In this document: positions 45,296-63,901 of the stretch, in pieces
How the letters are laid out: every line of letters begins with the position of its first letter
Numbering within the stretch: position 1 is the first letter of the stretch
Source of the DNA: Blastococcus sp.
GTDB taxonomy: Bacteria; Actinomycetota; Actinomycetes; Mycobacteriales; Geodermatophilaceae
Direction: 5' to 3'
Assembly: GCA_025465355.1 (NCBI GenBank)
Contig: JAODNN010000173.1
Span: 1 to 64,000 of the forward strand
Length of the DNA: 64,000 bases
Translations under genes and position numbers: made by a program
Notes under the pieces: model-generated
Databases searched by the model: none
What the model saw: only the letters and a program-made list of their open reading frames with translations
What the model was told of the DNA's origin: nothing

Positions 45296-46578
<1,283 letters not shown>

Positions 46579-46582
<4 letters not shown>

Positions 46583-47460
46583 GATCGGCCTTCCGTGGAG
46601 CGGCGGTACGCGCCGGCCAGCTCGCGAGCGGCCAGGACGGCGAACAGGCGGCGGCGGTACCCCTGGGACCCGTGCTGGTCACCGGAGGTGTTGACGACGT
46701 CGTGAGCGAGCTCCTCCGTCCCCGGGCGCAGCGCCGCCTCCAGGTCGTCTCGTCCGGCCACTGAGCGGAGCAGGTCCGTGACGTCGCGGGTCACGGCGCG
46801 GTCGGAGACGCCGAACCCGCTGATGACCGCCTCGGCAACGGCGCCGTCGGCCGAGCGGACCCGCGTGACGACCCCGGCCAGGGCGAAGTCGCCGTGGCGG
46901 CGGGCCAGTTCGGCGAACCCGAAGCCCTCCCCCGGGCCGGCCACGGGGAACTCGACGGCGGTGAGGATCTCATCGGGGCCGATGGCGGTGGTCATGGCGC
47001 CTTGGAAGAAGTCCGCGGCGGGAACTGTCCGCGTGCCGGACGGACCCCGGACCTCGAGCGCCGCCCCCAGGCAGGAGGCGACGGCCGGGAGCTCCGCACC
47101 GGGGTCGGCGTGGGCGAGGCTGCCGCACACCGTGCCGCGACTGCGGAGCTCCCGGTGCCCGACGAAGGGCAGCGCGCGTCCGACCAGCGGCACGGCGGCG
47201 GCCTTCGGGCTGCGTTCCAGCGAGCGCTGCCGGGCGGTGGCGCCGACCCGCAGGACGGGTCCCCGCCGCTCGATCGTGTCCAGCCCTGCCACCCCGTTGA
47301 TGTCGACCAGCGTTCCGGGACGGCCCAGGCGCATGGCCAGCACCGGGACCAGGGACTGCCCGCCGGCGAGGACCTTGCCGTCTCCGGCGGTGGCGGCGAG
47401 TTCACCGATGGCATCGGCCAGGGTGGCCGGACGCACGTAGGCGAAGGGGGCTGGCTTCAT
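46579..47460 (-). CDS. FAD-binding subunit of molybdenum hydroxylase (CoxM-like)
   Basis: 293 residues beginning MKPAPFAYVRPATLADAI. FAD signatures are VLAGGQSLVPVLAMRLGRP (about 30-48) and SRGTVCGSLAHADPGAELPA (about 107-126), where the usual TIGGS is TVCGS. It transfers electrons from the [2Fe-2S] subunit to an acceptor. It starts 6 bp after the enoyl-CoA hydratase stop and is coupled to the [2Fe-2S] fusion gene. It is not closely similar to the FAD subunit at position 1, so the window holds two separate hydroxylases. Confidence 0.95.
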
Positions 47461-47466
47461 CGCGGA

Positions 47467-48249
47467 TCAGCGCCCCGTGAAGGTCGGCTTGCGCTTCTCG
47501 CCGAAGGCCTTGACGCCCTCGGCGAAGTCCTGGGTGGCCCGCAGCATGGAGTAGGCCTTCCGCTCCAGCTCGATGCCGGTGTAGAGCGGCCCGTCGACCC
47601 CGCGGTCCAGGACCTCCTTGCCGGTGCGCAGCGCGGCCGGGGAGAACGCGATGAGCTTGCTGACCAGCGCCTCCACGCCCTCGTAGAGCGCATCGCGGTC
47701 GGCGTACAGCTGGTCGGAGACCAGACCCCAGTCGAACGCCTGCTGGGCCTTGATCCGGGTGGCGGTGAGGATGTGGAACTTGGCCCGGGACAGCCCGATC
47801 AGCCGGGCCAATCGCTGGGTGCCGCCGCTGCCGGGGATCATGCCGAGGTTCATCTCCGGCAGCGCGAACTGGCTGCGTTCGGTGGCCAGCCGGATGTCGC
47901 AGGACAGGACCAGTTCCAGGCCCACCCCGAAGCAGTACCCGTCGATCGCCGCCACGACCGGCTTGGTGCTGCGCGCCGGGGCGGTGATGTCGTGGCCGAG
48001 GTCGGTGAGATCGATCGGGTCGACCTCCATGAAGCCGGCGATGTCCCCGCCGGAGGTGAAGTGCTTGCCGTCGGAGCGGATGACCACGGCCCGGACGTTC
48101 GGGTCCCGGTCGATCTCGGCGAAGCGCTCGGCCATCTTGGCGCGCATCTCCAGGGTCACGATGGTGTAGCCGCCGTGCGTGAGGGTCAGGTAGGCGACCT
48201 GGCCGTCGTGGCCGTGGTCGAGAAGGACGTCGCCACCGGTGGTGGGCAT
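47467..48249 (-). CDS. Enoyl-CoA hydratase/isomerase family protein
   Basis: 260 residues from the ATG at 48249 with AGGAG upstream. Crotonase-fold oxyanion hole in GKHFTSGGDIAGF (about 61-73) and GYCFGVGLELVLSCDIRLAT; the catalytic-region PEMNLGMIPGSGGTQRLARL contains the Glu of the first catalytic position and Gly where the second Glu usually sits. That pattern is often seen in hydrolases or ring-opening members such as BadI-type enzymes. Embedded between two molybdenum-hydroxylase subunit genes, it probably acts on the hydroxylated CoA thioester. Confidence 0.94.
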   Translation of the reverse strand: MPTTGGDVLLDHGHDGQVAYLTLTHGGYTIVTLEMRAKMAERFAEIDRDPNVRAVVIRSDGKHFTSGGDIAGFMEVDPIDLTDLGHDITAPARSTKPVVAAIDGYCFGVGLELVLSCDIRLATERSQFALPEMNLGMIPGSGGTQRLARLIGLSRAKFHILTATRIKAQQAFDWGLVSDQLYADRDALYEGVEALVSKLIAFSPAALRTGKEVLDRGVDGPLYTGIELERKAYSMLRATQDFAEGVKAFGEKRKPTFTGR

Positions 48250-48286
48250 GGGCCAGCTCCTGATCTGTCGGGGTCTCGGGTGGGGC

Positions 48287-50794
48287 TCAGGCGGGACGGC
48301 GGACGCCGTCGAGCAGCTCGTGAAGGACGTTGCCGTGCACGGGCAACTTGTCGATCTTCAGGCCGTACGGCGAGAGGGCGTCGGTGACGGCGTTGGCGAT
48401 CGCGACCGGGAAGCTCATCGAGCTCCCCTCGCCCGAGCCCTTGGCGCCCAGCGGCGTCAGCGGTGAGGGTGAGACGACGTGGTCGGTGATCAGCGGGAAA
48501 CCCGCCTCGGCGGTCGTGGGGCACAGGTAGTCCAGAAACGTCGCTGCGGTGGGCTGCCCACCCTCGGTGTAGGTGAACTCCTCGTACATCGCCCCGCCCA
48601 GCGCCTGGGTCAGCGCGCCGTACACCTGGCCGTCGAGGAGGGTCTGGTTGAGCACCGTGCCGGCGTCGTGGACGCTCGACACCCGGTCGATGCCGATCTC
48701 CAGCGTGTCGGGATCGATCCGGACGGCGACCAGTTCCACCACCAGGCCGTAGCAGAGGCTGGAGTTGATCCGCTCATCGCGGGTGGCGGCGCGGGCGGCC
48801 GGAGTGAACGCGGCCTCCTCGTAGAGCCGGGCCGACGTGCCCTCGGGCAGGGAACCCGGGTCCCAGTGCACGACTCCCGCGGCATGCCGGAACTCGGCGG
48901 ACCGGCTGGGGTCGCTCTTCACCCTCACCCGGCCCTCAGCCAGTTCCAGCTCGTCCGGGTCGGCCCCGAGGAGCACGCCGCCCGCAGCCCGGATGGTCCG
49001 GGCGATGCGGTCGCAGCCCTCGATCACCGCGCTGGTGACGAGCGGGGCGAAGCGGGAGGAGTAGCTGCCGGTGGTCACCGTCCACGGTGTCGTCGCCGTG
49101 TCCATGTCGATGACGGCGCGCACCGACTCCTCTGGCAGGCCGAGCCGGGCGGCCGCGATCTGCCGGGCGATCGTGGCATGCCCCTGCCCCTGAGGCACGC
49201 TGCCCAGCATCACCGTCACGACGCCCTGCACGTCCACGCTGACCCGGACGTGCTCGGTGGAGCCGGACTTGTCCCGGCCGGCCTTGCGCGCCTCGGGAGG
49301 CGTCGCCAGACCCACGTATCCGATGTTGGTGCCCGAGGGGTCCACCACCACGGCGATGCCGATCCCGTACAGCTCACCGCGCGCGCGGGCCTCCGCCTGC
49401 CGCTGGCGCAGCTCCGCCAAGTCGGCGTTCTCCACCGCGAGGCGGACCGCCTTCTCATAGTTGCCGGAGTCGTAGACACCGCCGGTGGGGGTCTCGTAGG
49501 GGAACGCGTCCGGCGGCACGAGGTTCCGGCAACGGAGGTCCACCACGTCCAGCCCCGTGCGCGCCGAGATGTCGTCCATCAGCCGCTCGAGGCCGAAGTA
49601 CAGCTGCTGGCCGCCGAACCCGCGGATAAGACCGGTGGGCATGGTGTTGGTGACGACCGCCCGGGCCCGGATCTGCACGGCCGGGATCCGGTAGGCCCCG
49701 GTGATGTTGCCGTAGCAGCGGTAGAGGGTGCTGGGCTCAGGCGGGCGCATGTAGGCCCCGACGTTGTCGACGAGGTCCGTCCGCAGGGCCGTGATCACAC
49801 CGTCGGCGTCCACAGCGGCCTCGAACCGCATCATCCGGTCCGCGCCCGAGGAGCTGGCCACCAGGTGCTCGGCGCGGTCCTCAGACCAACGGACCGCTGT
49901 CCGGGCGTGCTTGGAGGCCAGCGCCAGCAGCACGACGTAGGGGTAGATGCCCGCCTTGATGCCGAAGCTGCCGCCGATGTCGGCCGGCACGTGCAGGCGC
50001 ACCCGCGACGTCGGGATGCCGAGCGCGGAGGCCATCACCGGGACCATCGTGAACGGCCCATGGAAGTTCGCCCACGCCTCGATGGCCGGGCCGGCGGAGT
50101 CCTCGGTCCAGTTGGCGATGACCGAGTAGCACTCCATGGGTGCGCCGGAGTACCGCGGGAAGTCGTACTCGCCGCTGACCACGTGGGTGGCCTCGGCGAA
50201 GGCCTGGTCCACCTCCCCGAACGTGAACGTCCGGTCGGTGGCGACGTTCGACCCCTGGCCCTCGTGCAGGAGCGGCGCGTCCTCGGCCAGGGCGGTGCGG
50301 ATGCCGACGACGGGGTCGAACAGCTCGTAGTCGACGGCCACCAGCTCGGCGGCGTCCTCGGCCACGTACCGGTCCGTGGCGACGACGACGGCCACCGGCT
50401 CCCCCACGTAGCGCACCTTGTCGGTACCCGTGGGGAAGTACGGCATCTGTGTGCTGACGGACAGCGGAAAGGGTCGCAGCGCGGCCAGCACCTCCTCAGG
50501 GCCGATGACTGCGGCGACGCCGGGGTGCCTGCGAGCACGGCTGAGGTCGACGCTGCGGATCCGGGCATGCGGGTGGGGGCTCCGGACGATCGCCGCGGTC
50601 AGCGTCCCCGGCAGCGGGTCCATGTCGTCGAGGAACCGCCCTTCCCCGGTCACCAGCGGCGCGTCCTCGACCCGGCTCGGGGTCCAGCGCGGCGCGTCGG
50701 TCCCACCGGTGTGCTCGCTGGGGGTCGCGGCAGCGGTCGGCGCGGCCTCCTCGGGGACGACGGGCGCGTCGGCAACGGTGGACTGGTCAGGCAC
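48287..50794 (-). CDS. Molybdopterin-binding large subunit of a xanthine dehydrogenase-family hydroxylase
   Basis: 835 residues from the GTG at 50794 with GGAGG five bases upstream; the upstream TTG is rejected. After an Ala/Pro-rich N-terminus of about 35 residues comes the a/b hammerhead domain (LVTGEGRFLDDMDPLPGTLT). The molybdopterin domains follow (DIGGSFGIKAGIYPYVVLLA, LIRGFGGQQLYFGLERLMDD). Near the end, LGAKGSGEGSSMS carries the catalytic glutamate. It hydroxylates its substrate with water-derived oxygen. Its start overlaps the CoA-ligase stop by 8 nt, so ligase and hydroxylase are translationally coupled, pointing to an acyl-CoA substrate. Confidence 0.96.
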   Translation of the reverse strand: MPDQSTVADAPVVPEEAAPTAAATPSEHTGGTDAPRWTPSRVEDAPLVTGEGRFLDDMDPLPGTLTAAIVRSPHPHARIRSVDLSRARRHPGVAAVIGPEEVLAALRPFPLSVSTQMPYFPTGTDKVRYVGEPVAVVVATDRYVAEDAAELVAVDYELFDPVVGIRTALAEDAPLLHEGQGSNVATDRTFTFGEVDQAFAEATHVVSGEYDFPRYSGAPMECYSVIANWTEDSAGPAIEAWANFHGPFTMVPVMASALGIPTSRVRLHVPADIGGSFGIKAGIYPYVVLLALASKHARTAVRWSEDRAEHLVASSSGADRMMRFEAAVDADGVITALRTDLVDNVGAYMRPPEPSTLYRCYGNITGAYRIPAVQIRARAVVTNTMPTGLIRGFGGQQLYFGLERLMDDISARTGLDVVDLRCRNLVPPDAFPYETPTGGVYDSGNYEKAVRLAVENADLAELRQRQAEARARGELYGIGIAVVVDPSGTNIGYVGLATPPEARKAGRDKSGSTEHVRVSVDVQGVVTVMLGSVPQGQGHATIARQIAAARLGLPEESVRAVIDMDTATTPWTVTTGSYSSRFAPLVTSAVIEGCDRIARTIRAAGGVLLGADPDELELAEGRVRVKSDPSRSAEFRHAAGVVHWDPGSLPEGTSARLYEEAAFTPAARAATRDERINSSLCYGLVVELVAVRIDPDTLEIGIDRVSSVHDAGTVLNQTLLDGQVYGALTQALGGAMYEEFTYTEGGQPTAATFLDYLCPTTAEAGFPLITDHVVSPSPLTPLGAKGSGEGSSMSFPVAIANAVTDALSPYGLKIDKLPVHGNVLHELLDGVRRPA

Positions 50795-52310
50795 GGGGAC
50801 CTCCGAGGTCAAGCTCGGCGAGAGGTTGGTAGTCCCCCGCAGTCAGGGTGCGCCGCAGGGTCTTGCCGACGGCTGAGCGCGGGATCGCCGAGACGGCGAC
50901 GACCCGCTTCGGCCACTTGAGGGAGGGCAGACCGATCGGCCCGGGGATGTAGCGCTCCAACTCGCGGAGCGCGTGCTCCGGCGCGAGGCCATCGGCAGGA
51001 ACGACGAAGGCGGTGACCGCGCTCCCCCACCGCTCGTGCGGCAGCCCGACGACGCAGACGTCGGCGACCGCTGGGCACCGCACGAGGACGGCCTCGATCT
51101 CGTCCGGGTAGAGGTTCTCGCCGCCGGAGTTGATCATGTCGTCGACGCGGCCGGCGACCCACAGGTCGCCGTCCTCGTCCTCGGTGGCCAGGTCGCCGGT
51201 GTAGTACCAGCCGTCGCGGATGGACTTCTCGTTCGCGTCGGGACGCTTCCAGTAGCCGGCGAAGGCCTCGGGGCTGGCCATGGAGGCGATGACCTGCCCC
51301 TGCTCGCCGGGCCGTACGAGCGCGTCCGGCGGTGCGCCGACCTCGGGCGCCACCAGCCGGACGCGGGAGAAGACCCCGGCGCGGCCGGCGCAGCCGGGCT
51401 TGCGCATCCCGTCGGGGCCGATGGTGAAGGTGTAGATCTCGGTGCTGCCGTAGTGGTTGACCAGCACCTGCGGCCGCAGAGCCTCGGCCAGCTGCTCGGC
51501 CAGGGCCGGCGTCATCGCGGCACCGGCGTAGGCCAGGCGCTGCGCGCCGGTGTCGACGAAGCCCTCCTGGCGGAGCAACGACCAGTAGATGGTGGGGACC
51601 AGGTACAACGCCGTGACCCCCTCCTCGTGCATCAGCCGGACCGATTCCGCGGCGTCGAACCGCGCCTGGGGTACCCACGTGCCACCGCACACCACGCTCG
51701 CGACGAGCGAGCGCAGACCCATGGTGTGGAACATCGGCATCACGCCGAGCACGACCTCGCCCTGGTGCAGTTGCGACTGCACCAGGTGCGCCACCGCCGC
51801 GCTGTGCTCCGCACGGTGCGAACGGGGGACGCCCTTGGGTCGGCCCGTCGTGCCGGACGTGTAGAGCATGACGCTGGTGGCGTCCTCGGAGGGCGTGGAG
51901 CCGAGGGCCCCGTCGGGTTGGCCGTCGGGCGTCAGCTCGCCCACGTCGCGGTGGGTTGCCGCGCTGCCGGCCTTCTCCGCGATGGACGCCGTCGTCTCGT
52001 CGGTGACGAGCAGCGCGGGGTCGGCGTCGCCGAGGCAGTAGGCCAGTTCCTCCGGGCTCAGCCGGGACGAGAGGGGCACCGAGACGGCGCCGAGCTTCTG
52101 AGCCGCGAGGTGGAGGGTGGCCAGGGGCTCGCCGCCGGCGAGGAAGAGGGCCAGCCGATCGCCGGGCCGGACGCCTTGCTCCGCCAGCACGCGGGCGAGC
52201 TGATTGGTCCGTGCGTCCCACTCCCGGTACGTCATGGGCCTGGCACCACCGACGGCGCGGCGGTCCGGGTGTCGATCCGCTGTCCACGCCAACGCCGTGG
52301 CCAGATCCAT
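50787..52310 (-). CDS. AMP-dependent acyl-CoA ligase
   Basis: 507 residues; ATG with GGAGGG upstream. Adenylate-forming motifs are VMLYTSGTTGRPKGVPRSH (about 149-167), LVNHYGSTEIYTF, WYYTGDLATEDEDGDLWVAG with RVDDMINSGGENLYPDEIE, and the catalytic lysine in SAVGKTLRRTL near the C-terminus. It activates a carboxylic acid to its CoA thioester. The substrate is not predictable, but the family resembles 4-hydroxybenzoate/cyclohexanecarboxylate-type ligases more than fatty-acid ligases. First gene of the five-gene operon and divergent from PadR. Confidence 0.95.
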   Translation of the reverse strand: MDLATALAWTADRHPDRRAVGGARPMTYREWDARTNQLARVLAEQGVRPGDRLALFLAGGEPLATLHLAAQKLGAVSVPLSSRLSPEELAYCLGDADPALLVTDETTASIAEKAGSAATHRDVGELTPDGQPDGALGSTPSEDATSVMLYTSGTTGRPKGVPRSHRAEHSAAVAHLVQSQLHQGEVVLGVMPMFHTMGLRSLVASVVCGGTWVPQARFDAAESVRLMHEEGVTALYLVPTIYWSLLRQEGFVDTGAQRLAYAGAAMTPALAEQLAEALRPQVLVNHYGSTEIYTFTIGPDGMRKPGCAGRAGVFSRVRLVAPEVGAPPDALVRPGEQGQVIASMASPEAFAGYWKRPDANEKSIRDGWYYTGDLATEDEDGDLWVAGRVDDMINSGGENLYPDEIEAVLVRCPAVADVCVVGLPHERWGSAVTAFVVPADGLAPEHALRELERYIPGPIGLPSLKWPKRVVAVSAIPRSAVGKTLRRTLTAGDYQPLAELDLGGPRA

Positions 52311-52344
52311 TGAGCCCTCCGTCGGGTGGCCTGGATGATCCGAA

Positions 52345-52353
52345 ATGGACCAT
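52345..52353. promoter_or_regulatory. ATGGACCAT palindrome, candidate PadR operator
   Basis: A perfect short palindrome with AT-rich flanks (GAA before, ATAG after) in the 70-bp gap between the CoA-ligase operon and PadR. Its ATG is in frame with PadR, but the ribosome-binding site fits the later GTG, so the palindrome is more likely an operator. Confidence 0.45.
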
Positions 52354-52380
52354 ATAGAGCCGACGATTAGGGTGGCAAGC

Positions 52381-52947
52381 GTGGCGTCAGAGCGGTTGTC
52401 CCCGACCTCCTACGTGGTGCTCGGGATGGTGGGCCTTCGCGGCCCCTCGACGTCCTACGACCTCAAGCGCGCGATCAGCCGGTCGATCGGCTACTTCTGG
52501 GTCTTTCCGCACGCCGGTCTGTACTCCGAGCCGCAGCGGCTGGTGACGATGGGCCTGCTCGCCGCGTCCAGAGAGCAGAACGGCCGCCGCCGGCGCACCT
52601 ACTCGATCACCGAGGACGGACTGCGGGAGCTGCGGGCCTGGCTCGCCGCGCCGACCAACGAACACTTCCAACTGCGCGACGTCGCCGAGCTGAAGCTCTT
52701 CTTCAACGAGCTCGGCGAGCCGGGCAACGTCCAGCGGCTGGCCCGCGAGCAGATCGCCCAGCACGAGGAGCGGATCCAGATCTACCAGAGCATGCAGCAG
52801 CGCTACTCCACCGTGGAGGGCGTGGCCCCGCGGCTGGTGACGCTGCGCCTGGGCCTGGAGATGGAGTACGCGGCGCTGCGGTTCTGGACCAAGCTGGCAC
52901 AGGAGGAGGCCCCCGCCGCGGCGGACGACGAGGACGCGACCGCCTGA
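52381..52947 (+). CDS. PadR-family transcriptional regulator
   Basis: 188 residues from the GTG at 52381 (TAGGGTGG upstream). The N-terminal winged helix reads LSPTSYVVLGMVGLRGPSTS, YDLKRAISRSIGYFWVF, LYSEPQRLVTMGLL, RRRTYSITEDGLRELRAWL. A helical C-terminal dimerisation domain follows (FNELGEPGNVQRLAREQIAQ). PadR proteins repress phenolic-acid and related catabolic genes until the acid or its CoA ester is present. The divergent CoA-ligase/hydroxylase operon is the obvious target. Confidence 0.94.
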   Translation: MASERLSPTSYVVLGMVGLRGPSTSYDLKRAISRSIGYFWVFPHAGLYSEPQRLVTMGLLAASREQNGRRRRTYSITEDGLRELRAWLAAPTNEHFQLRDVAELKLFFNELGEPGNVQRLAREQIAQHEERIQIYQSMQQRYSTVEGVAPRLVTLRLGLEMEYAALRFWTKLAQEEAPAAADDEDATA

Positions 52948-53070
52948 CCCGCCGCGCGCGGCCGGAGCAACGGGGCCAACGTGAGCGGTCGTCTACGGGC
53001 GGTACGGATCGCCCATGACGGCTGGACGCTCCGGAGACCCGGACGACGTGGCCGAGTCATCCCTCACCGG

Positions 53071-54255
53071 TCAGGCGACGCGGACCTGCAGCGGCAGACT
53101 GGTGACGGCCACCATCGTCCACGGGCTGCGGTGTCGGACCTCGTCGTCGACCACCTCCACGTCCCGGTAGCGCTCCAGCATCAGGCGCAGCGCGACTCTG
53201 GCCTCCAGCCGGGCAAGCGGCGCGCCGAGACAGAAGTGGATGCCGTGCCCGAACGTCAGGTGCGGGTTGGGCCTGCGATGGATGTCGAACCGGTGCGGCT
53301 CGGTGAACACCCGCTCGTCCCGGTTGGCCGCGGCCAGCCAGGGCATCACGAACTGCCCGGCCGGGATGCGCACGCCACCCACCTCGGCGTCGGCCCGGGC
53401 GACCCGGCCCAGCCGCGGGAACGGCGTCCGCACTCGCAGCACCTCCTCGATCCCCGCCGGGAGCAGCGTCGGGTCGGCCCGGACCTCGGCGACGACGTCC
53501 TGGTGCTCCTGGAAGCTGAGCACGCTGTTGCCCAGTGTCGCGGTGGTCGTGATGTGGCCCGCGATGAGCAGCAGCCCGACGAAGCCGATGATCTCCTCCT
53601 CGGCCAGCCGCTCCCCGTCCACCTCGGCCTGGACGAGCCTGCTCGTCAGGTCGTCGCCCGGGCTGGCCCGCCGGGACCTGATGTGTTCCAGGAAGTAGGC
53701 GTTCATCTCGCGCATGGTCGGCGCGACGGCGGTCAGCGCCTGCTCACTGGCCTCCCGCAGATCCTGCTCCGGATCGGTCTCCTGGCCGAGCAGCACGTCG
53801 GCCCATGTGCGGAACAGCCCCCGGTCCGAGGCGGGGATGCCGAGCAGCTCAGCGATCACGATCACCGGCAGCGGGTAGGCGAGCGCGTCGATCAGGTCGA
53901 ACCGCTCACCGGCCTCGTCCAGCAGCTGGGTGGTCAGCTCGGCGATGCGGGGCTCCAGGTCGGCCACGACCCTCGGCGTGAACGCCTGGCTGACCAGGGT
54001 CCGTAGCTTGGCGTGCTGGGGCGGGTCCATGGTGACGAAGTTGCCGCGCTGGAAGAGCGCCAGATCGTCCTCGACGGGCTGCAGGGCGCTGAGGTCGGAG
54101 GAGAATGCGGCCGGGTCGTTCAACACCGTGCTGGCCTCCGGATGACCCAGCACGTGCCAACACTGTTGCTTGTCGTCGAAGTGGACCTGCCCCTGTGCGC
54201 GGCTCGCCTCCAGCCAGGCGAGGAAGTCCTCGAACGTCGATCGAGTGGTCGTCAT
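53071..54255 (-). CDS. Cytochrome P450
   Basis: 394 residues. The I-helix oxygen-binding motif is LLLIAGHITTTATLGNSVL (about 228-246, AGHxTT instead of AGxD/ETT), the K-helix is IEEVLRVRTPFPRLGRVARA with ExxR, and the heme-binding loop is FGHGIHFCLGAPLARLEAR with the cysteine ligand. It is a soluble bacterial class I P450 of CYP107-like general type. No ferredoxin or ferredoxin reductase gene is adjacent, so partners come from elsewhere. The substrate is unknown. Confidence 0.96.
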   Translation of the reverse strand: MTTTRSTFEDFLAWLEASRAQGQVHFDDKQQCWHVLGHPEASTVLNDPAAFSSDLSALQPVEDDLALFQRGNFVTMDPPQHAKLRTLVSQAFTPRVVADLEPRIAELTTQLLDEAGERFDLIDALAYPLPVIVIAELLGIPASDRGLFRTWADVLLGQETDPEQDLREASEQALTAVAPTMREMNAYFLEHIRSRRASPGDDLTSRLVQAEVDGERLAEEEIIGFVGLLLIAGHITTTATLGNSVLSFQEHQDVVAEVRADPTLLPAGIEEVLRVRTPFPRLGRVARADAEVGGVRIPAGQFVMPWLAAANRDERVFTEPHRFDIHRRPNPHLTFGHGIHFCLGAPLARLEARVALRLMLERYRDVEVVDDEVRHRSPWTMVAVTSLPLQVRVA

Positions 54256-55308: not shown

Positions 55309-56097
55309 ATGCTCGGCCGTGCCTGGGGCCTCGGGCGCTCCCTGGTCATGTACCACGGCCAACCGGGCAGGCACCGGCGGATGGTGCGGTTCTACCGGGA
55401 GTTCCTCGGACCGGGGGACGTCGGCTTCGACCTCGGCGCCCACGTCGGCAGCCGGGTGCGCGCCTGGCGGCGGCTCGGGGTGCGGGTGATCGCGGTCGAG
55501 CCGCAGCCCGACTGCCTGCGCGTCCTGCGCCTGTTCTTCGGCCGCGACCCCGACGTCGTCATCGTGCCGGGAGCAGCCGGCGCCCGGGCCGGGCGGGCGC
55601 GACTGGACATCTCCACCGCGACCCCGACGGTGTCCTCGATGGCATCCGAGTGGATCACGTCGGTGGCGGCCGACCGCCGCTTCGCCCGGGTGCGCTGGGA
55701 CCGCTCCGTCGAGGTGGCGGTGTCGACCCTCGACGACCTCATCGACGTCCACGGCCTGCCGGCCTTCTGCAAGATCGATGTCGAGGGCTTCGAGGTGGAC
55801 GTGCTGAGAGGGCTCACCCACCCCCTGCGCGCGCTGTCCTTCGAGTACCTGCCGCCCGCGCACGACGCGGCCCTCACCGCGCTCGGCCTCGTGGAGCGGC
55901 TCGGGGCACCGGTGGGCGGATACCTGTACAACTACTCACCCATCGAGACGATGCGCCTGGCCAGCGACCGCTGGCTCGACGCGGGCGACCTCGTAGAACT
56001 GCTCGACCGTTTCCGCCCGTCGGGCCGGTCCGGCGACGTCTACGCCCGGTTGGCTCGACCGGACCGCGTCGCGACATCTGGAGCGAAGTCCGGGTGA
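55309..56097 (+). CDS. FkbM-family methyltransferase
   Basis: 262 residues. SAM-binding core DVGFDLGAHVGSRVRAWRRL (about 37-56) and VIAVEPQPDCLRVL, then CKIDVEGFEVDVLRGL (about 158-173), where FkbM enzymes have K-x-D-x-E-G-x-E. O-methylation of a sugar, glycan or lipid headgroup is the usual role. Its last 162 bp are also the antisense end of the YbhN-like gene on the other strand, an unusually deep convergent overlap. Confidence 0.93.
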   Translation: MLGRAWGLGRSLVMYHGQPGRHRRMVRFYREFLGPGDVGFDLGAHVGSRVRAWRRLGVRVIAVEPQPDCLRVLRLFFGRDPDVVIVPGAAGARAGRARLDISTATPTVSSMASEWITSVAADRRFARVRWDRSVEVAVSTLDDLIDVHGLPAFCKIDVEGFEVDVLRGLTHPLRALSFEYLPPAHDAALTALGLVERLGAPVGGYLYNYSPIETMRLASDRWLDAGDLVELLDRFRPSGRSGDVYARLARPDRVATSGAKSG

Positions 56098-57048
56098 GCC
56101 GCCAGGGTGACGACGTCGCCGGTGCGGCATCTCCTGACCGGGACGCAGCAGCAGGAGCACGCCGCCGGGCAGGCAGGCGATCAGGCTCAGCACCCCGTAC
56201 ACCAGGGCGGCGGTGAGCCCCTGCGCCGGGCCGAGGCCCCCCGCCCCGAAGACGAGCGTCGCGACGGCCTCCCGAGGCCCCCAGCCCCCGACGTTGACCG
56301 GCAGGGCCATCGCCAGCAGCGCCGGCACCAGCACCGAGAGCAGTTGGCCGAGCGGGGCCCGGCAGCCCGCCGCCCGCGCGGCGACGACGAACAGCGCGAG
56401 GTATCCGGTCAGCGTGGCGACCGACAGCAGGACCACCCCCGGCCCGATGCTGCGGGAGAACACGCCGGCGCGGGCGTCGGCGAGGCCGGTCCGGAGCGCG
56501 CTGCGCAACCGGGAGGCGTGCGGTGCGCGCCGCGTCCAGACGGCCGTCACGGCGACGGCGGCGAGGACGACGACCAGCGCGACCAGCACCCCACGGCCGG
56601 GACGGCCCGTCGCGGCCGCGAGCACCTCGGGCCGGGTGAGCAGCACCGCGACCCCGCCGACCACCGAGACCACGAGGCCGGCGCACCGTTCGAGCGCGAC
56701 CGCACGGACGCCCCGCCCGACGTCACCGGCCCGCCGGCCGGAGCTCACCGCCCGATGGACGTCGCCGAGCACCCCCACCGGTAGCACGGAGTTGAGGAAC
56801 AGTGCCCGGTAGCAGTCCGCGACCGCCGCCCGCAACGGCAGGCTCAGGCCCAGACCGCGTGCCACCAGACACCACCGACACGCGCTGAGCACTGTGGTCA
56901 GCAGGCCGATGGCCAGCGCGGCGAGCGCCGAGCCGGCATCGAGCGCCCGCAGCCCCGCCACGACGGGGGCGCTGCCGAGGTGCGCCACCAGCGCGACCAG
57001 GATGCCGACGCCGACGCCGATCCGGAGCCAGGGCCCGAGCCTGCGCAT
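55936..57048 (-). CDS. YbhN/lysylphosphatidylglycerol-synthase-TM-region-like membrane protein
   Basis: 370 residues from the ATG at 57048 (a GTG at 57051 is possible). It has 7-8 hydrophobic helices, with motifs of the flippase-like domain: ACRWCLVARGLGL near 55, FLNSVLPVGVLGDVHRAV (about 88-105), ALERCAGLVVSVVGGVAVLL, and LPVNVGGWGPREAVATLVFG. After the last helix (LPGGVLLLLRPGQ) a hydrophilic tail of about 60 residues follows, encoded opposite the FkbM gene. That tail may be non-functional. Probable role in moving a lipid or glycolipid across the membrane; operon with the methyltransferase and glycosyltransferase. Confidence 0.88.
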   Translation of the reverse strand: MRRLGPWLRIGVGVGILVALVAHLGSAPVVAGLRALDAGSALAALAIGLLTTVLSACRWCLVARGLGLSLPLRAAVADCYRALFLNSVLPVGVLGDVHRAVSSGRRAGDVGRGVRAVALERCAGLVVSVVGGVAVLLTRPEVLAAATGRPGRGVLVALVVVLAAVAVTAVWTRRAPHASRLRSALRTGLADARAGVFSRSIGPGVVLLSVATLTGYLALFVVAARAAGCRAPLGQLLSVLVPALLAMALPVNVGGWGPREAVATLVFGAGGLGPAQGLTAALVYGVLSLIACLPGGVLLLLRPGQEMPHRRRRHPGGSPGLRSRCRDAVRSSQPGVDVAGPARRAETVEQFYEVARVEPAVAGQAHRLDG

Positions 57049-57938
57049 CACGACGCCCCTGCCGGGAGGGCGAGCACGTCGACGTGGCCGACGACGATCC
57101 GCAGCTGCCCGGCGGCGCACGGGCGGAGCCTGCGGCGCAGGTAGGCGTCCGCGTAGCGCTCGAGGCCCGGCTGCTGGGCGCACGCGGCGCCGATCCACCC
57201 CCGCAGCCACTCCTCCGCCAGCCCGGCCTGGTCGGCACCGAGGCGCCACGGGCTGGGCCGGCTCTCCACCGTCGCGCCCCGCCGGGCGAACGCGTCGGCG
57301 GCGGCGGCGCCGGCGTCGGGCCCCAGCAGCCGCCGGCCGTGCGCGTAGCGGCGCTGGTGGGCGTCGAAGGCGGCCGCGAACGTGGCATCGAGCGGGTCAG
57401 AGGGAGCCAGCTCGACGCACCCGGTGACCGACAGTGCCAGCAGCGCGGCCGCTCCGGCCTCGGCGCACGCGGCGGCGAGCCCGTCCACCTCCTCTGCGGT
57501 CAGCAGGTCGAGCAGCGCGGACGCGGTCACCAGCGCCGTCCCGGCGAGGTCGGCGGCGCGCAGGCCGGTGAGGTCCCCGTCCTGCGTCCGTGCGGTGACC
57601 GGTGCGCCGTCGGCGGCCCGCCCGGGCATGCGCGCCGCGGCGGAGCCGAGCAGCCCGGGATCACGGTCGTGCAGGATCCAGACCTGCGGGCCGGGCAGCC
57701 GTCCGGCCAGCCAGCGTCCCATCGAGCCGGTGCCGCAGCCCAGGTCGCGGATCACCACAGCGCCGCCGGGACGGGCATCGGCGGCCAGACGGACGCGGAC
57801 GAGGTCTACCAGCGCGGGCGCCCGGGCAGCGGCGTCGGCGTTCTCCCGCAGCGCCAGCCAGCCCGGCGCGCACACGGGTGAGCCCGGGCTGCTCAGCCGG
57901 GCGTTCCAGGCAGCCGGTCCAGCACGCCGGTCAGGCAT
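57048..57938 (-). CDS. Class I SAM-dependent methyltransferase
   Basis: 296 residues from the ATG at 57938 with GGGAGG upstream. Motif I VIRDLGCGTGSMGRWLAGRL (about 62-81), followed by VWILHDRDPGLL and a post-I acidic stretch, then TALVTASALLDLLTAEEVDG. Its start overlaps the glycosyltransferase end by 46 bp and its stop shares a base with the YbhN-like start, so the three genes form a tight operon. The acceptor is unknown. Confidence 0.9.
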   Translation of the reverse strand: MPDRRAGPAAWNARLSSPGSPVCAPGWLALRENADAAARAPALVDLVRVRLAADARPGGAVVIRDLGCGTGSMGRWLAGRLPGPQVWILHDRDPGLLGSAAARMPGRAADGAPVTARTQDGDLTGLRAADLAGTALVTASALLDLLTAEEVDGLAAACAEAGAAALLALSVTGCVELAPSDPLDATFAAAFDAHQRRYAHGRRLLGPDAGAAAADAFARRGATVESRPSPWRLGADQAGLAEEWLRGWIGAACAQQPGLERYADAYLRRRLRPCAAGQLRIVVGHVDVLALPAGAS

Positions 57939-58990
57939 CGAAACGTCGCCTCCCACCCGTCCAGCCGGTCGCGCTGCTCCTGCGCGACCGAACGCAGTTG
58001 CTCGCGCAGAGCCGGCGAGCCCAACCAGCGGCGCAGGGCCGCTGCGAGGGCTGGAACGTCCGCCGGCGGCGCCACGATCCCCGGCACGCGGCCGTCCGGG
58101 TCCCGGCCGAGGGTCTCCGGCACCCCGCCGACGGCCGCCGCGAGCACCGGGATCCCCCGTGCCAGGGCCTCGGTCACGACCATGCCGTAGGACTCGGCGC
58201 GGGACGGCAACACCAGCAGGTCGGCGGCGGCGTATGCCGCGGCCAGCCGTGCGCCGGTCCGCGGGCCGGTCAGCCGCAGCCGCCCGGCGAGCCCGTGGCG
58301 CTCGATCCCGCGGCGGACGGCGGCCACCTGCGCGGGATCGCGGCGCAGCGGGCCGACGAGGTCACAGCGCCAGGGCAGGTCGGCGGCGGTGGCGAGGGCC
58401 TCGACGAGCAGGTCCTGGCCCTTGGTCGCGGTGACCGCCCCGACGCACAACAGCCGGGTGGCGCCGTCCGTGCCGGGGGCCAGCGGCGCGCGATCGACGC
58501 CCGGCGCGGCGACATGGACCCGGTCAGCGCCGAGCCCGTGGTGCTGGACGAGCCGCCGTGCCGCCCAGCGGCTGGTGGCCACCACCGCGCTCGCGGCCTG
58601 CAGCGTGCTGCGCTCGAGGGCGGCCAGCTCCGCCGCGGCCGCAGGGGCCGGCCCTACCTCGTCGCCCAGGGGCAGGTGCACGAGGACGACGAGCTGCAGC
58701 CGGCGCGCCTGCGGAACGACGACGTCCGGGACGCCGCAGGCCACCAGCCCGTCGACGAGGACGACCGCGCCGTCGGGCACGGTGGCCAGGGTGCGGGCCA
58801 GCGACGCGCGCGCGGCGCCGTCGGGTCGGGGCCAGCCCCCGGCGACGGCGAACTCGCGCACCGGCCGGCCGGTGGCGGGCAGGCCGCGGCAGATGCGGCG
58901 GTCGTACAGGTTGCCACCGCTCGGTACGGCGTCGTCATCGACGTCACCCGGCACGACGACGTGCACCGAGCGCAGGCTGCCATCGGACAC
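57893..58990 (-). CDS. Glycosyltransferase family 4
   Basis: 365 residues from the GTG at 58990 (reading MSDGSLRSVHVVVPG). GT-B fold with the acceptor-side PSGGNLYDRRICRGL, the nucleotide-sugar domain entry LLCVGAVTATKGQDLLVEAL (about 210) and the GT4 E-x7-E motif in PSRAESYGMVVTEALARGIP (about 275-295), then VGGVPETL. Retaining sugar transfer from an NDP-sugar. With the methyltransferase and YbhN-like protein it may build and move a methylated glycolipid. Confidence 0.94.
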   Translation of the reverse strand: MSDGSLRSVHVVVPGDVDDDAVPSGGNLYDRRICRGLPATGRPVREFAVAGGWPRPDGAARASLARTLATVPDGAVVLVDGLVACGVPDVVVPQARRLQLVVLVHLPLGDEVGPAPAAAAELAALERSTLQAASAVVATSRWAARRLVQHHGLGADRVHVAAPGVDRAPLAPGTDGATRLLCVGAVTATKGQDLLVEALATAADLPWRCDLVGPLRRDPAQVAAVRRGIERHGLAGRLRLTGPRTGARLAAAYAAADLLVLPSRAESYGMVVTEALARGIPVLAAAVGGVPETLGRDPDGRVPGIVAPPADVPALAAALRRWLGSPALREQLRSVAQEQRDRLDGWEATFRCLTGVLDRLPGTPG

Positions 58991-59150: not shown

Positions 59151-61544
59151 ATGACCGTGGCCCGGTTGCGGACCGGGCAGGGACTGGCCGCCGCGGCAGG
59201 CGCCCAGATCCTCCTGCTCACCGCCCTGTCGGGGCTGGCCGGCCTCGGACCGGCGGGTTGGTTGGCCGGTACCGCGTATCTCGTGGGTCTCGGGGTTCTG
59301 CTGACCGCCGCCACGAAGCACGCCCGGATCGACTCGCTGGGTCCGGCCGACCTCGTCACGTCGGCGCGAGCGGTGCTGGTCGGGGGCGTGACCGCGCTTG
59401 TCGTCGACCGGCTCTGGAGCGGCGGCGGTCCCCCCGCCCCCCTCGTCGTCCTCGCGGCGACGGCGCTGGCCCTGGACGCGGTCGACGGCCGGGTCGCCCG
59501 GCGCACCGGGACGGCGTCCGCACAGGGCGCCCGCTTCGACATGGAGGTCGACAGCTTCCTCCTGCTCGTGCTCAGCGTGCACGTTGCCGTGCTCCTGGGG
59601 CCGTGGGTGCTGGCCATCGGTGCCCTCCGCTACGTCTTCGTCGCGGCGGGGCGGATGGCGCCGTGGCTGCGGTCGCCCCTGCCCACCAGCTACCCGGCCA
59701 AGGTCGTGGCCGCGCTGCAGGGGGTCGTCCTCGTGGTGGCCGCCGCCGACGTCCTGCCGCGCGCGCTCGCGGCCGCCCTGGCGGGGACAGCACTGGCGAT
59801 GCTGGTGTGGTCCTTCGGCCGATCGGTCGTGTGGCTGCGGCGCAGCGCTCGTTCTCGCCCGACGGTCGCCGGTGCGGAGCGCACACCGGCCGCGGGGGCC
59901 GCGGTCGGTTCCGGCCGCCGCGGTGGCCTCACGGCCGGGCGCCGCGTCGCGGCGTGGGTGCCCAGCGCCGTGGCGGGCGGGCTGGTGCTCGCCGCCCTCG
60001 TCGCCCCGGACCGGTTGACCGAGGTCACCCCCGGCGCGTTCGTGCGCATCCCGGTGGAAGGACTCGTCGGTGCCGCCGTCCTCCTCGTCCTGCCCCGCAG
60101 GGCACGCCGGGTGGTCGCTGTGTCCGCCGGAGTCGCCCTCGGTCTGCTGACCCTCCTGAAGATCCTCGACATGGGGTTCGTCGCGGTGCTCGGCCGACCG
60201 TTCGACCCGCTGACCGACTGGACGATGTTCCCCCCCGCTCTGGAGTTCGTCGACGGGTCGAGCGGCCGGCGTACCGCGATCGGCGCCGTGGTCGCCGCCG
60301 TGGCCCTTGCCACCACCGTGCTGGTACTCATGACCTGGGCGCTGCTGGAGCTGTCCCGGCTCGTCCACCGGCGGAGGACCGCCGCCGGCAGATCGCTCCT
60401 GGTACTGGGATCCGCCTGGGTTCTCTGCACTCTGTTCGGCGCGCAGCTCGTGCCCGACGTGCCGGTCGCCGCCTCCAGCGCGTCGGCCCTGGTCCACGAT
60501 CGGGTGGTCCAGGTGCGCGCGGACCTGCGGGACCAGCGGGCCTTCGCCGCAGCGGTCGGAACAGACGCTTTCGGCAACAGGCCTGGCGATCAGTTGCTGA
60601 GAGCGCTCCGCGGCAAGGACGTCGTCGTCGCCTTCGTGGAGAGTTACGGGCGCGACGCGATCGAGGAGCGGGCGTTCGCATCCGGGATCGGCGCGGTCCT
60701 CGACGCCGGGACTCGCCGGTTGGCTGCGGCCGGGTTCTCCTCACGTAGCGCTTTCCTCACGTCCTCGACGACCGGCGGCCTCAGCTGGCTGGCGCACTCC
60801 ACGTTTCTCTCCGGCCTGTGGATCGACAGCCCGCAGCGTTACCGCAGCCTTCTCTCCCGGGACCGGCTGACCCTGACCAGCGCCTTCCGCCGCGCCGGCT
60901 GGCGAACCGTCGCGGTCGTACCGGGCACCACCCGGGACTGGCCGGAGGCGGCGTTCTACGGCTACGACCGGGTCTACGCCTTGGACAACCTCGGGTACCG
61001 CGGCCCGGACCACGGCTGGCCCACCGTGCCGGATCAGTACACCCTGGCGGCCTTCGAACGCCTCGAACACGCCAGGCCGGACCGTCCGCCGCTGATGGCG
61101 GAGATCGTCCTCGACAGCAGCCACGCGCCCTGGCAGTTCATCCCCGAGATCGTCAGCTGGGCCGACGTCGGGGACGGCTCGGTGTTCGACACCATGCCCG
61201 CTGCTGCCGCTCCGCCGAACACCCTCTGGGCGGAGGGCCCGACCCGCTTGCGCCCCGAGTACCGGCGTGCCATCGGGTACTCGCTGAACTGCCTCGTCTC
61301 CTACGTCGAGACCTACGGCAATGACGATCTCGTGCTGATCCTGCTGGGCGACCACCAGCCCCCGGTGATCACCAGGCGCGGTGCCAGCCACGACGTGCCG
61401 ATCGCCGTCGTGACCCGTGACCGGGCCGTTCTCGACCGGATCCGGCAGTGGCGGTGGGAGGAGGGCCTCAAGCCGGGGCCGCAGGCTCCGGTCTGGCCGA
61501 TGGATGCGTTCCGCGACCGGTTCCTGACCGCGTTCGGTCCCTAG
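59151..61544 (+). CDS. CDP-alcohol phosphatidyltransferase fused to a sulfatase/LTA-synthase-like domain
   Basis: 797 residues. The N-terminal ~230 residues are a membrane-bound CDP-alcohol phosphotransferase with a complete catalytic motif: Asp109, Asp112-Gly113, Ala116-Arg117, Gly126, Asp130, Asp134. More membrane helices follow (about 260-430). The last ~320 residues are an alkaline-phosphatase-superfamily domain: VVVAFVESYGRDAIE (metal Glu), TSSTTGGLSWLAHST (possible nucleophile Thr/Ser) and LILLGDHQPPV (metal Asp-His), the pattern of phosphoglycerol or phosphoethanolamine transferases. The fusion suggests lipid headgroup synthesis and its extracytoplasmic transfer by one protein. It is divergent from the GT4 operon. 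Confidence 0.92.
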   Translation: MTVARLRTGQGLAAAAGAQILLLTALSGLAGLGPAGWLAGTAYLVGLGVLLTAATKHARIDSLGPADLVTSARAVLVGGVTALVVDRLWSGGGPPAPLVVLAATALALDAVDGRVARRTGTASAQGARFDMEVDSFLLLVLSVHVAVLLGPWVLAIGALRYVFVAAGRMAPWLRSPLPTSYPAKVVAALQGVVLVVAAADVLPRALAAALAGTALAMLVWSFGRSVVWLRRSARSRPTVAGAERTPAAGAAVGSGRRGGLTAGRRVAAWVPSAVAGGLVLAALVAPDRLTEVTPGAFVRIPVEGLVGAAVLLVLPRRARRVVAVSAGVALGLLTLLKILDMGFVAVLGRPFDPLTDWTMFPPALEFVDGSSGRRTAIGAVVAAVALATTVLVLMTWALLELSRLVHRRRTAAGRSLLVLGSAWVLCTLFGAQLVPDVPVAASSASALVHDRVVQVRADLRDQRAFAAAVGTDAFGNRPGDQLLRALRGKDVVVAFVESYGRDAIEERAFASGIGAVLDAGTRRLAAAGFSSRSAFLTSSTTGGLSWLAHSTFLSGLWIDSPQRYRSLLSRDRLTLTSAFRRAGWRTVAVVPGTTRDWPEAAFYGYDRVYALDNLGYRGPDHGWPTVPDQYTLAAFERLEHARPDRPPLMAEIVLDSSHAPWQFIPEIVSWADVGDGSVFDTMPAAAAPPNTLWAEGPTRLRPEYRRAIGYSLNCLVSYVETYGNDDLVLILLGDHQPPVITRRGASHDVPIAVVTRDRAVLDRIRQWRWEEGLKPGPQAPVWPMDAFRDRFLTAFGP

Positions 61545-61985: not shown

Positions 61986-62945
61986 ATGCACCACCGCCTC
62001 TCCAGGCCCCGACTCATCCCCTTCCTTCGGCACTGGTTGTCCCGACTGGTCATCCGCCGGCCGGTCCTGCTGGTCTCCGCGCTCGTCCTGCTCGTGGCAG
62101 CAGCCGTCCCGCTGATCGTCCCCGCGCGGACCGGGGCCGCCGAGGCCGTCTCGCCGCCCGCCGCCGTGGATGCGTCCCCGCAGAGCCGGCTCGCCCATGG
62201 GGGCGACAGCACGGGCCCTCAGATCGGCGCACCGGAACGGCGCGACGAGCAGGCCGCGCCGGAGGCAGACCGGTCGCCGGCCGCCGACGGAGAGCCCCTC
62301 GCGGTGACGGACCGTGAGGTGCTGCACAAGGTGAAGCAGGCCGGCCTGTGGGAGATGCCGGTCGGCATGTGGGCGAGCAAGCGCGCCGCCGACCCGCGAG
62401 TCCGCGAGGTCGGCAGCAAGATCGCCGCCGAGCACCAGGAGCTGGACGGGATCGTGACCAAGGCCGCGTCCGTCCTCGGCGTCGAGCTACCGACCGAGCC
62501 GACCGCCGAGCAGCAGGGCTGGATGCGCGAGATCGACGCGCAGCGCGGCGCCGCGTTCGACGAGCGGGCCGTGTTCCTGTTGCGGCAGGCGCACGGCAAG
62601 GTGCTGCCGGTTCTCACGCAGGTCCGGGTCGCGACGCGCAATTCGGTGATCCGCGAGTTCACGACCGAGGCCATGGCATTCGTCCAGCGGCACATCGCGT
62701 ACCTCGAGTCGACCGGGCTCGTGCACTACGAGCAGCTGCCCGACACCTCCGAGCTGACCAACCCCGACTGGCGGTCGAACGCACTCACCTTCGTGCTGTT
62801 CGCGCTGGTCACCGCCGTCTTCACCATCCTGCTCGTCCTCGTCGGCCGCGCGCTGGCCGGCGTCATCCGGCGGCTGCCCGGATCGGGGAAGAGCCGAACC
62901 ACCACACCGCGGGCACCGGCCGGCGCACGTCACACAAGGAGCTGA
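61986..62945 (+). CDS. DUF4142-domain membrane-anchored protein
   Basis: 319 residues from the ATG at 61986 (ribosome-binding site weak). One hydrophobic segment near residues 25-48 (RRPVLLVSALVLLVAAAVPL) exports the middle of the protein. The DUF4142 domain (about 100-245) is helical: TDREVLHKVKQAGLWEMPVG, IAAEHQELDGIVTKAASVLG, FVQRHIAYLESTGLVHYEQL. A second membrane helix follows near 262-287 and a basic tail. The fold is ferritin-like in relatives. It is followed after 2 bp by a secreted protein, so the two may act together at the cell surface. Confidence 0.9.
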   Translation: MHHRLSRPRLIPFLRHWLSRLVIRRPVLLVSALVLLVAAAVPLIVPARTGAAEAVSPPAAVDASPQSRLAHGGDSTGPQIGAPERRDEQAAPEADRSPAADGEPLAVTDREVLHKVKQAGLWEMPVGMWASKRAADPRVREVGSKIAAEHQELDGIVTKAASVLGVELPTEPTAEQQGWMREIDAQRGAAFDERAVFLLRQAHGKVLPVLTQVRVATRNSVIREFTTEAMAFVQRHIAYLESTGLVHYEQLPDTSELTNPDWRSNALTFVLFALVTAVFTILLVLVGRALAGVIRRLPGSGKSRTTTPRAPAGARHTRS

Positions 62946-62947
62946 TC

Positions 62948-63901
62948 ATGAAGTTGACCACCAAGCGCACGCTCCCGATTGCCGCGGCGGCGGCCGTGGG
63001 AGCACTGCTCACCGGGGCCGTGGCCGTGGGGACCGGAGACAGGGGGGCGGCAGACGCGCAGCCCTCTGCGAGTGCCGCGGAGCTCCTCGCGGCGGCTGCT
63101 ACGGGATCCGCCCCGGCGGCCTCGGGGCACGACGCGGCCGGGCACGACCACGGTGCGGCGGCGCCCGGCGCGGCTCCGGTCGTGCCGCTGTCCCGGACGT
63201 GCGCGGACTCCGATCTGCCACCGCACGACGGCAACCAGATCGGGCCCGCGTGCGTCTCGACCCAGTTCGGCGAGGTTCCCGCGGCCGAGAACGTCCCGCA
63301 GTTGCTGATCACCGACGCCCCTGAGCAGGTGGCGGTCGGCCAGCCGTTCACGATCAAGGTCTCGACGCGCAACCTCGTGCGCGACCGCTTCCTGGCGGCC
63401 GCGCAGGGCGGCTACTACCTCGAGCGCTCCATCCTGAACGACAACGGCCTCGTCCGCGGGCACTTCCACACGGCCTGCCGCGTGCTCGACAACGCCGGTC
63501 AGGCGCCCAAGCCGGAGCGTCAGGCGGTGTTCGTCGCGACCGAGGACGGCGGCGGCGGAGCCGCGCCGGACACCGTCACGGTCAAGATCCCGGGGCTGGC
63601 CGCCGCCGGCGAAGCCCAGTGCACGACCTGGGCCGGCGACGGATCGCACCGGATCCCGATGCAGGTGTTCGCGAACCAGGTCCCGGCCGTCGACTCGGTC
63701 CGCATCCAGGTCGGGGGCGACGATGAGGTCGACAGTCCCGCGAATGCCGGCACCGGCCAGCGCACCGAAGCGACCCCGCGCACCAAAGCAACCCCGCGCA
63801 CCGAGGGGGGTCGGCGCCCGGACGCCAACCAGCGCAACACCGACCCGCGCAACGACGACCGCCAGCACACCGACCGCCAGCGCACCCACGACGGCCAGTA
63901 G
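62948..63901 (+). CDS. Secreted protein of unknown function with low-complexity tail
   Basis: 317 residues from the ATG at 62948 with GGAG upstream. A signal peptide (KRTLPIAAAAAVGALLTGAV) is followed by a His/Ala/Gly-rich linker. The globular part (about 80-258) has VPQLLITDAPEQVAVGQPFT and LVRDRFLAAAQGGYYLERSI with GHFHTACRVL; three cysteines at about 84, 97 and 177 plus one at 220 could form disulfides. The last 60 residues repeat short TPRT and DRQ/NDDR units rich in Thr, Arg, Asp and Gln, probably disordered. I do not recognise the family; it is conserved-looking and cotranscribed with DUF4142. Confidence 0.85.
   Translation: MKLTTKRTLPIAAAAAVGALLTGAVAVGTGDRGAADAQPSASAAELLAAAATGSAPAASGHDAAGHDHGAAAPGAAPVVPLSRTCADSDLPPHDGNQIGPACVSTQFGEVPAAENVPQLLITDAPEQVAVGQPFTIKVSTRNLVRDRFLAAAQGGYYLERSILNDNGLVRGHFHTACRVLDNAGQAPKPERQAVFVATEDGGGGAAPDTVTVKIPGLAAAGEAQCTTWAGDGSHRIPMQVFANQVPAVDSVRIQVGGDDEVDSPANAGTGQRTEATPRTKATPRTEGGRRPDANQRNTDPRNDDRQHTDRQRTHDGQ

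Follow-up and report, generated by a model that had tools for sequence, protein, structure and literature searches.

The window analyzed here, a stretch of 64,000 nucleotides of Blastococcus DNA, contains a single gene whose 797-residue product joins a CDP-alcohol phosphatidyltransferase (the N half) to a membrane phosphotransferase resembling LtaS (the C half). We propose, tentatively and as a reading that falls a little short of probable, that two enzymes acting one after the other in a single envelope-lipid pathway have been naturally fused in this gene, with phosphatidyl-X made inside the cell and phospho-X transferred outside. Both active-site motifs were intact, the protein has 13 predicted helices with the two sites on opposite faces of the membrane, the halves co-occurred strongly, and the gene belongs to a cluster; the reactions, their direction, X, and the acceptor are what we infer. 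Coordinates of the features are given in Table 1.

Table 1. Positions in the window of the fusion gene, its parts, and the neighboring genes
Feature	Position	Strand	Basis or remark
Fusion gene, CDP-alcohol phosphatidyltransferase plus LtaS-like membrane phosphotransferase	59151..61544	+	797 aa, stop-free ORF
N half, residues 1-236	59151..59858	+	Two extra helices, then six-helix CDP-alcohol phosphatidyltransferase core; PF01066, pLDDT 92.9
CDP-alcohol phosphotransferase motif, residues 109-134 (DAVDGRVARRTGTASAQGARFDMEVD)	59475..59552	+	Conservation in 70 relatives
Linker, residues 237-267	59859..59951	+	Basic, disordered, predicted cytoplasmic
C-half membrane helices (five), residues 268-430	59952..60440	+	Helices 269-284, 302-313, 316-347, 373-407, 409-429 (model)
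Predicted extracellular alkaline-phosphatase-superfamily domain, residues 480-797	60588..61541	+	Fold and profile matches
E497, predicted metal ligand (= Glu-263 of Listeria LtaS)	60639..60641	+	74/74 relatives; aligned with ES motif of LtaP
Candidate nucleophiles T540 (60768-60770) and S545 (60783-60785)	60768..60785	+	LtaP alignment, conservation, model
H658 of SSHAPW, predicted substrate histidine	61122..61124	+	74/74 relatives
D734-H735 of GDHQP, predicted metal ligands	61350..61355	+	74/74 relatives
GT4 glycosyltransferase, divergent neighbor	57893..58990	-	Pfam Glycos_transf_1; 38 loci
Class I SAM methyltransferase	57048..57875	-	Weak Methyltransf_25, under cut-off; homologues in 28 loci
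LPG_synthase_TM / flippase-like membrane protein	55936..57048	-	PF03706, E 2e-29; homologues in 35 loci
FkbM-type methyltransferase	55309..56097	+	PF05050

The reading frame is a real gene, neither a chance frame nor an assembly artifact specific to this contig. Its GC3 was about 0.9 in each half and 0.87 in the linker, and the halves were found fused in the identical order in independent genomes, including two that are single contigs (G039 and G052). Fusion by assembly error was ruled out by these single-contig genomes and by the 17 other loci with the same fusion, and a contaminant contig was ruled out by flanking DNA 88% identical to that of a same-genus genome. The model of the whole protein had a mean pLDDT of 90.8; in the linker, where 9 Lys or Arg lie within residues 225–268, the value was approximately 41–43 at residues 240–260. 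Pfam CDP-OH_P_transf matched residues 66–219 above its cut-off (E 2.3e-10), and Pfam Sulfatase matched residues 564–741 (E 6e-4), which is under the gathering score for the 797-residue protein. The Sulfatase match was present in 18 of 29 relatives, with the best value (E 4.5e-10) in split relatives. The preliminary description had held that one protein combines a complete synthase motif with an alkaline-phosphatase-superfamily domain that keeps its metal ligands, and both features proved invariant among relatives.

As judged from its residues, the N half is a CDP-alcohol phosphatidyltransferase with a complete motif and a predicted transfer reaction. The pattern D-x2-D-G-x2-A-R-x8-G-x3-D-x3-D (D109, D112, G113, A116, R117, G126, D130, D134) was complete in all 70 relatives, and E132 within it was kept in 69. 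The model contained the six-helix core fold of the class I CDP-alcohol phosphatidyltransferases. A fold search with the N half placed PgsA, the PGP synthase, at the top (Z 15.0, rmsd 3.2, 167 residues), followed by PIP synthase (Z up to 12.1), with the first unrelated protein at Z 7.6. The N half thus shares core and motif with these enzymes and differs from them by its two additional N-terminal helices and by the result with equivalog and NCBIfam models, none of which it matched over the model's cut-off. For an Agrobacterium relative the top-scoring model was PgsA (E 5e-11), under the cut-off.

Membrane topology was predicted by counting loops from the motif loop (residues 120–123), assumed to be cytoplasmic as in known CDP-alcohol enzymes, together with the pattern of basic residues. 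The model has eight membrane helices in the N half and five in the C half. The loops predicted to be inside from model and charge pattern were 59–64, 175–180, 236–268, 314–316, and 402–414; among the inside loops, the long linker, 314–322, and 402–414 were clearly basic. Because the basic loops lie on one side, the CDP motif is predicted to be inside and the C domain outside, so that a lipid passed between the two active sites would have to cross the membrane. The layout of LtaS and LtaP, five helices followed by an outside catalytic domain, fits the C half. Topology prediction and structure modeling, which the preliminary description had proposed as a check, thus gave a confident model with 13 helices and sites on opposite faces.

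Comparison of the C-domain fold by VIA-align gave LtaP (4uop, Z 21.5), LtaS (2w5q, Z 21.4), and GacH (5u9z, Z 20.6) as the closest structures, with EptC and MCR ranking after them (Z 19–20). Full-length EptA (5fgn) and MCR-1 (9nww) also aligned across the membrane region of the C half, EptA covering residues 265–797. A profile built from the C half of 29 relatives had a sole match in the PDB, LtaP (E 1.6e-4); when hhalign was used to compare the profile with the single E. coli proteins OpgB and BcsG, neither could be aligned usefully. In the profile alignment to LtaP, the metal ligands and substrate His of LtaP and LtaS coincided with E497, D734, H735, and H658. Opposite the LtaP Thr lies T540, which was Thr in 66 of the 74 relatives and Val, Ile, Met, or Ala in the other 8; S545, the first residue of a helix (545–554) in the model, was present in all 74. 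Because E497, H658, D734, and H735 are invariant in these relatives, the C domain is probably not dead, and we rejected a catalytically dead second domain, which the preliminary description had named as grounds for abandoning its reading. A sulfatase was also ruled out, there being no C/S-x-P-x-R formylglycine motif and SSTTGGLSWLAH at that site.

In Listeria LtaS, Arg-362 helps to hold the donor phosphate, and the LtaS polymerases have a second GroP site, Ser-486/Asn-488/His-489, which the primases are without (PMC4192460). At position 599, opposite Arg-362 in a weak loop alignment, the 74 relatives had Glu (63), Gln (6), Val (3), Ala (1), or Gly (1). The second GroP site was without a counterpart after GDH in the protein, which has GDHQP-P-V-I-T-R there. 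Without this site the C domain is more like the primases, which make a single transfer, than like the polymerases, and an LTA polymerase is disfavored. Because the donor-phosphate Arg is replaced by Glu or Gln, the donor is probably handled otherwise than phosphatidylglycerol. The two differences together lead us to favor a single transfer, perhaps of a headgroup other than glycerol, a preference that depends on the weak loop alignment. Surface transfer of phosphoglycerol, one of the outcomes suggested earlier, is on these grounds not favored.

The distribution of the halves was examined at several scales. Among 61 relatives, 14 had both halves and 47 had neither, so that all 14 positives held both. 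Among 297 genomes of the class, both halves were present in 32 and the N half alone in 13; no genome had the C half alone, and three further matches were weak. The N-only count may be overstated, because this search scores few candidates per genome. The association had a Fisher p of 8e-33 across the 297 genomes, uncorrected for shared ancestry and with about 20 genomes from one genus. When 18 genomes with a seemingly lone C half were checked, 17 carried the N half, and one of the 18 (L070) was actually fused. By this count the C half depends on the N half, but the N half does not depend on the C half.

At 67 loci, including that in the window, the halves were fused in 18, adjacent in 31 (25 on the same strand and 6 divergent), close by in 1, and apart in the remaining 17. 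Since the halves are encoded by adjacent genes in most relatives and fusion has happened several times, both very probably act on the same envelope lipid. Tight physical coupling is dispensable, given that the two halves are often megabases apart in Streptomyces. On a C-half tree the fused label changed seven times, at least five of the changes being forced by well-supported branches; in this count two loci (L014 and L065) were entered as adjacent, and both are fused. The copy in the window clustered with Pseudonocardia. Because its nearest Pseudonocardia copy (L023, C half 69% identical) is two separate genes and the fused copies of the same genus (L002 and L004) branch at other places in the tree, the fusion in the window probably arose independently, and the block probably was gained laterally into native flanks. 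A second kind of fusion in the pathway was found at another locus (L055:4128-5603), where a 491-residue protein combines the CDP-alcohol half with a methyltransferase. The preliminary description had counted separate genes of unrelated function in relatives against itself: the genes are indeed separate in many relatives, but the halves share one conserved cluster. Its statement that the lipid is made and used by the same polypeptide does not extend to most relatives, which use two proteins.

The surrounding pathway, which had been missed, is the strongest clue. Clustering of the neighboring genes at 60 loci identified as conserved a GT4 glycosyltransferase (38 loci), a zinc-type dehydrogenase (37), LPG_synthase_TM (35), a PTPS-like protein (34), a RibD-type reductase together with GTP cyclohydrolase II (33), and a methyltransferase (28). 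Extra neighbors grouped with the CDP family through L055 were methyltransferases at four loci (L025, L027, L029, and L067), and those at L036, L065, and L077 very probably are also methyltransferases. The FkbM family was present in the clusters of Pseudonocardia, Haloechinothrix, Actinophytocola, and Peteryoungia as well; in the window, the FkbM and LPG_synthase_TM frames overlap tail to tail by approximately 160 bases (55936-56097). The cyclohydrolase II, RibD, dehydrogenase, and PTPS genes of the window's genome lie together elsewhere, on contig C71 of G000 (L092:7460-12282), and the pathway in this genome is divided between a resident part and one that was probably acquired. On either side of the lipid genes the window has other content. 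Adjoining them at 45296-54255 is a catabolic-looking cluster of molybdenum hydroxylase subunits (with a CoxG domain), an enoyl-CoA hydratase, an AMP-ligase, a PadR regulator, and a P450. Directly downstream of the fusion, at 61986-63901, are a DUF4142 protein and a gene without a Pfam match, neither among the families conserved around the fusion in relatives.

The cluster was found in Actinomycetota and Alphaproteobacteria. Alphaproteobacterial plasmids of Peteryoungia and Agrobacterium carried the whole set as separate annotated genes; on two Rhizobiaceae plasmids (L127:965-10539 and L128:1728-10521) the complete cluster comprised RibA, RibD, PTPS, dehydrogenase, GT4, methyltransferase, CDP-alcohol enzyme, flippase, and sulfatase, all separate. 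A short version in Rhodobacterales (L125:7760-15301, L126:7969-16424, and L130:7391-14764) consisted of a cytochrome b561, the CDP-alcohol enzyme, the sulfatase-like enzyme, an NMT1/THI5-like ABC importer, and GT4; the GTP-derived genes were absent. Since NMT1 proteins have a wide range of ligands, the presence of the importer is a weak hint that uptake stands in for making a pyrimidine-like precursor. A broader proposal, which we regard as rather unlikely, is that the cluster makes a widespread, undescribed class of phospholipid with a GTP-built headgroup or glycosyl partner (from cyclohydrolase II, the RibD-type reductase, the PTPS-like protein, and the dehydrogenase), made inside and used outside for an unprecedented phospho-group of the envelope, the Rhodobacterales importer replacing the GTP-derived branch.

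Both domain families are already known, and another CDP-alcohol phosphotransferase fusion is already solved. In that enzyme, IPCT-DIPPS, the partner domain makes the CDP-alcohol inside, whereas the C half described here is predicted to act outside; in both (Archaeoglobus, 4mnd, for the former) a CDP-alcohol phosphotransferase is joined to an enzyme for a different step of the pathway it serves. The C half has in common with LtaP, LtaS, and GacH the catalytic fold, the metal ligands, the substrate His, and helices preceding the outer domain; it differs in its approximately 10–15% identity, in the replaced Arg and absent second GroP site, in having both T540 and S545 as nucleophile candidates, in having a lipid synthase as a fused or separate partner, and in its gene context. 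The phosphoethanolamine transferases EptA, MCR-1, and BcsG belong to the same superfamily and also combine a membrane part with an outer domain, but they are not fused to lipid synthesis and transfer a different headgroup. In Streptomyces coelicolor, the cluster that includes SCO6650 and SCO6655 contains homologues of PTPS and of GTP cyclohydrolase II and probably belongs to the same pathway; to our knowledge it has no known product and its lipid enzymes no known role. RefSeq names the split genes "CDP-alcohol phosphatidyltransferase family protein" and "sulfatase" or "LTA synthase family protein." A literature search, with little reach into subscription papers, did not turn up any account of either the fusion or the cluster.

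In the mechanism we propose, the N half would use CDP-diacylglycerol to attach a phosphatidyl group to a product of the pathway, either an alcohol or an alcohol phosphate, giving phosphatidyl-X on the inside. This lipid would cross the membrane, possibly by way of the neighboring flippase-like LPG_synthase_TM protein, whose gene sits in the same cluster. Outside, the Ser or Thr nucleophile of the C half, with its bound metal ion, would attack phosphatidyl-X, releasing diacylglycerol and keeping phospho-X as a covalent intermediate, which would then be handed to a surface acceptor in one transfer, as LtaP does with phosphatidylglycerol. A role of the N half as maker of the donor is favored by its being nearest to PgsA, the enzyme that supplies the precursor of the donor lipid used by LtaS, and by the C half being nearest to the phosphoglycerol transferases LtaP, LtaS, and GacH. 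Against it stand the replacement of the LtaS donor-phosphate Arg, the Sulfatase match under the Pfam cut-off, and the separation of the halves in Streptomyces.

The same observations can be arranged otherwise. The N half and the cluster (GT4, methyltransferases, and flippase) could make and export a glyco-phospholipid that the C half decorates outside from PE or PG, as EptA and MCR-1 do on lipid A. This reading, less likely than the donor reading and the most serious of its rivals, accounts equally well for the one-way dependence; an optional decoration would suit the occurrence of N half and GT4 without the C half (in the 13 N-only genomes and in the L075 genome, where no C half was found), the EptA and MCR folds are nearly as close as LtaS (Z 19–20 versus 21), and the donor pocket is unlike that of LtaS. 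The pairing of a PgsA-like N half with an LtaP/GacH-like C half suits a donor made by one half for the other, however, and repeated fusion is more simply explained if the maker of a donor is being joined to its user. The earlier proposal that a lipid is made and then used is well grounded in the conserved sites, repeated fusion, adjacency, and lack of a lone C half among the class genomes; its assignment of that lipid as donor is the part that sequence does not separate from the role of acceptor.

An improbable third reading makes the C half a hydrolase, a phosphatase or phospholipase C-like enzyme that trims or recycles the lipid of the N half with no acceptor (compare the phosphatase activity reported for YejM). 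Isolated LtaS and EptA domains do hydrolyze their substrates (PMC7576196), and the polymerase site is absent from the C domain; yet the complete five-helix membrane part typical of transferases is retained, and there is no obvious reason for a hydrolase to be strictly coupled to synthesis on the other face. That the halves are fused without direct biochemical coupling, each with its own substrate, is very improbable. The methyltransferase fusion at L055 shows that fusion in the cluster is not unique to this pair, but no C half was found without an N half in the 297 genomes, even when the two are far apart in the genome, and the fused state has changed at least five times on the tree.

Repeated fusion of an inner-face lipid synthase to an outer-face phosphotransferase would physically and directly tie the making of a lipid on one side of the membrane to its spending on the other. 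The orphan pathway spans two phyla, and the fusion pair provides a handle with which to find its product.
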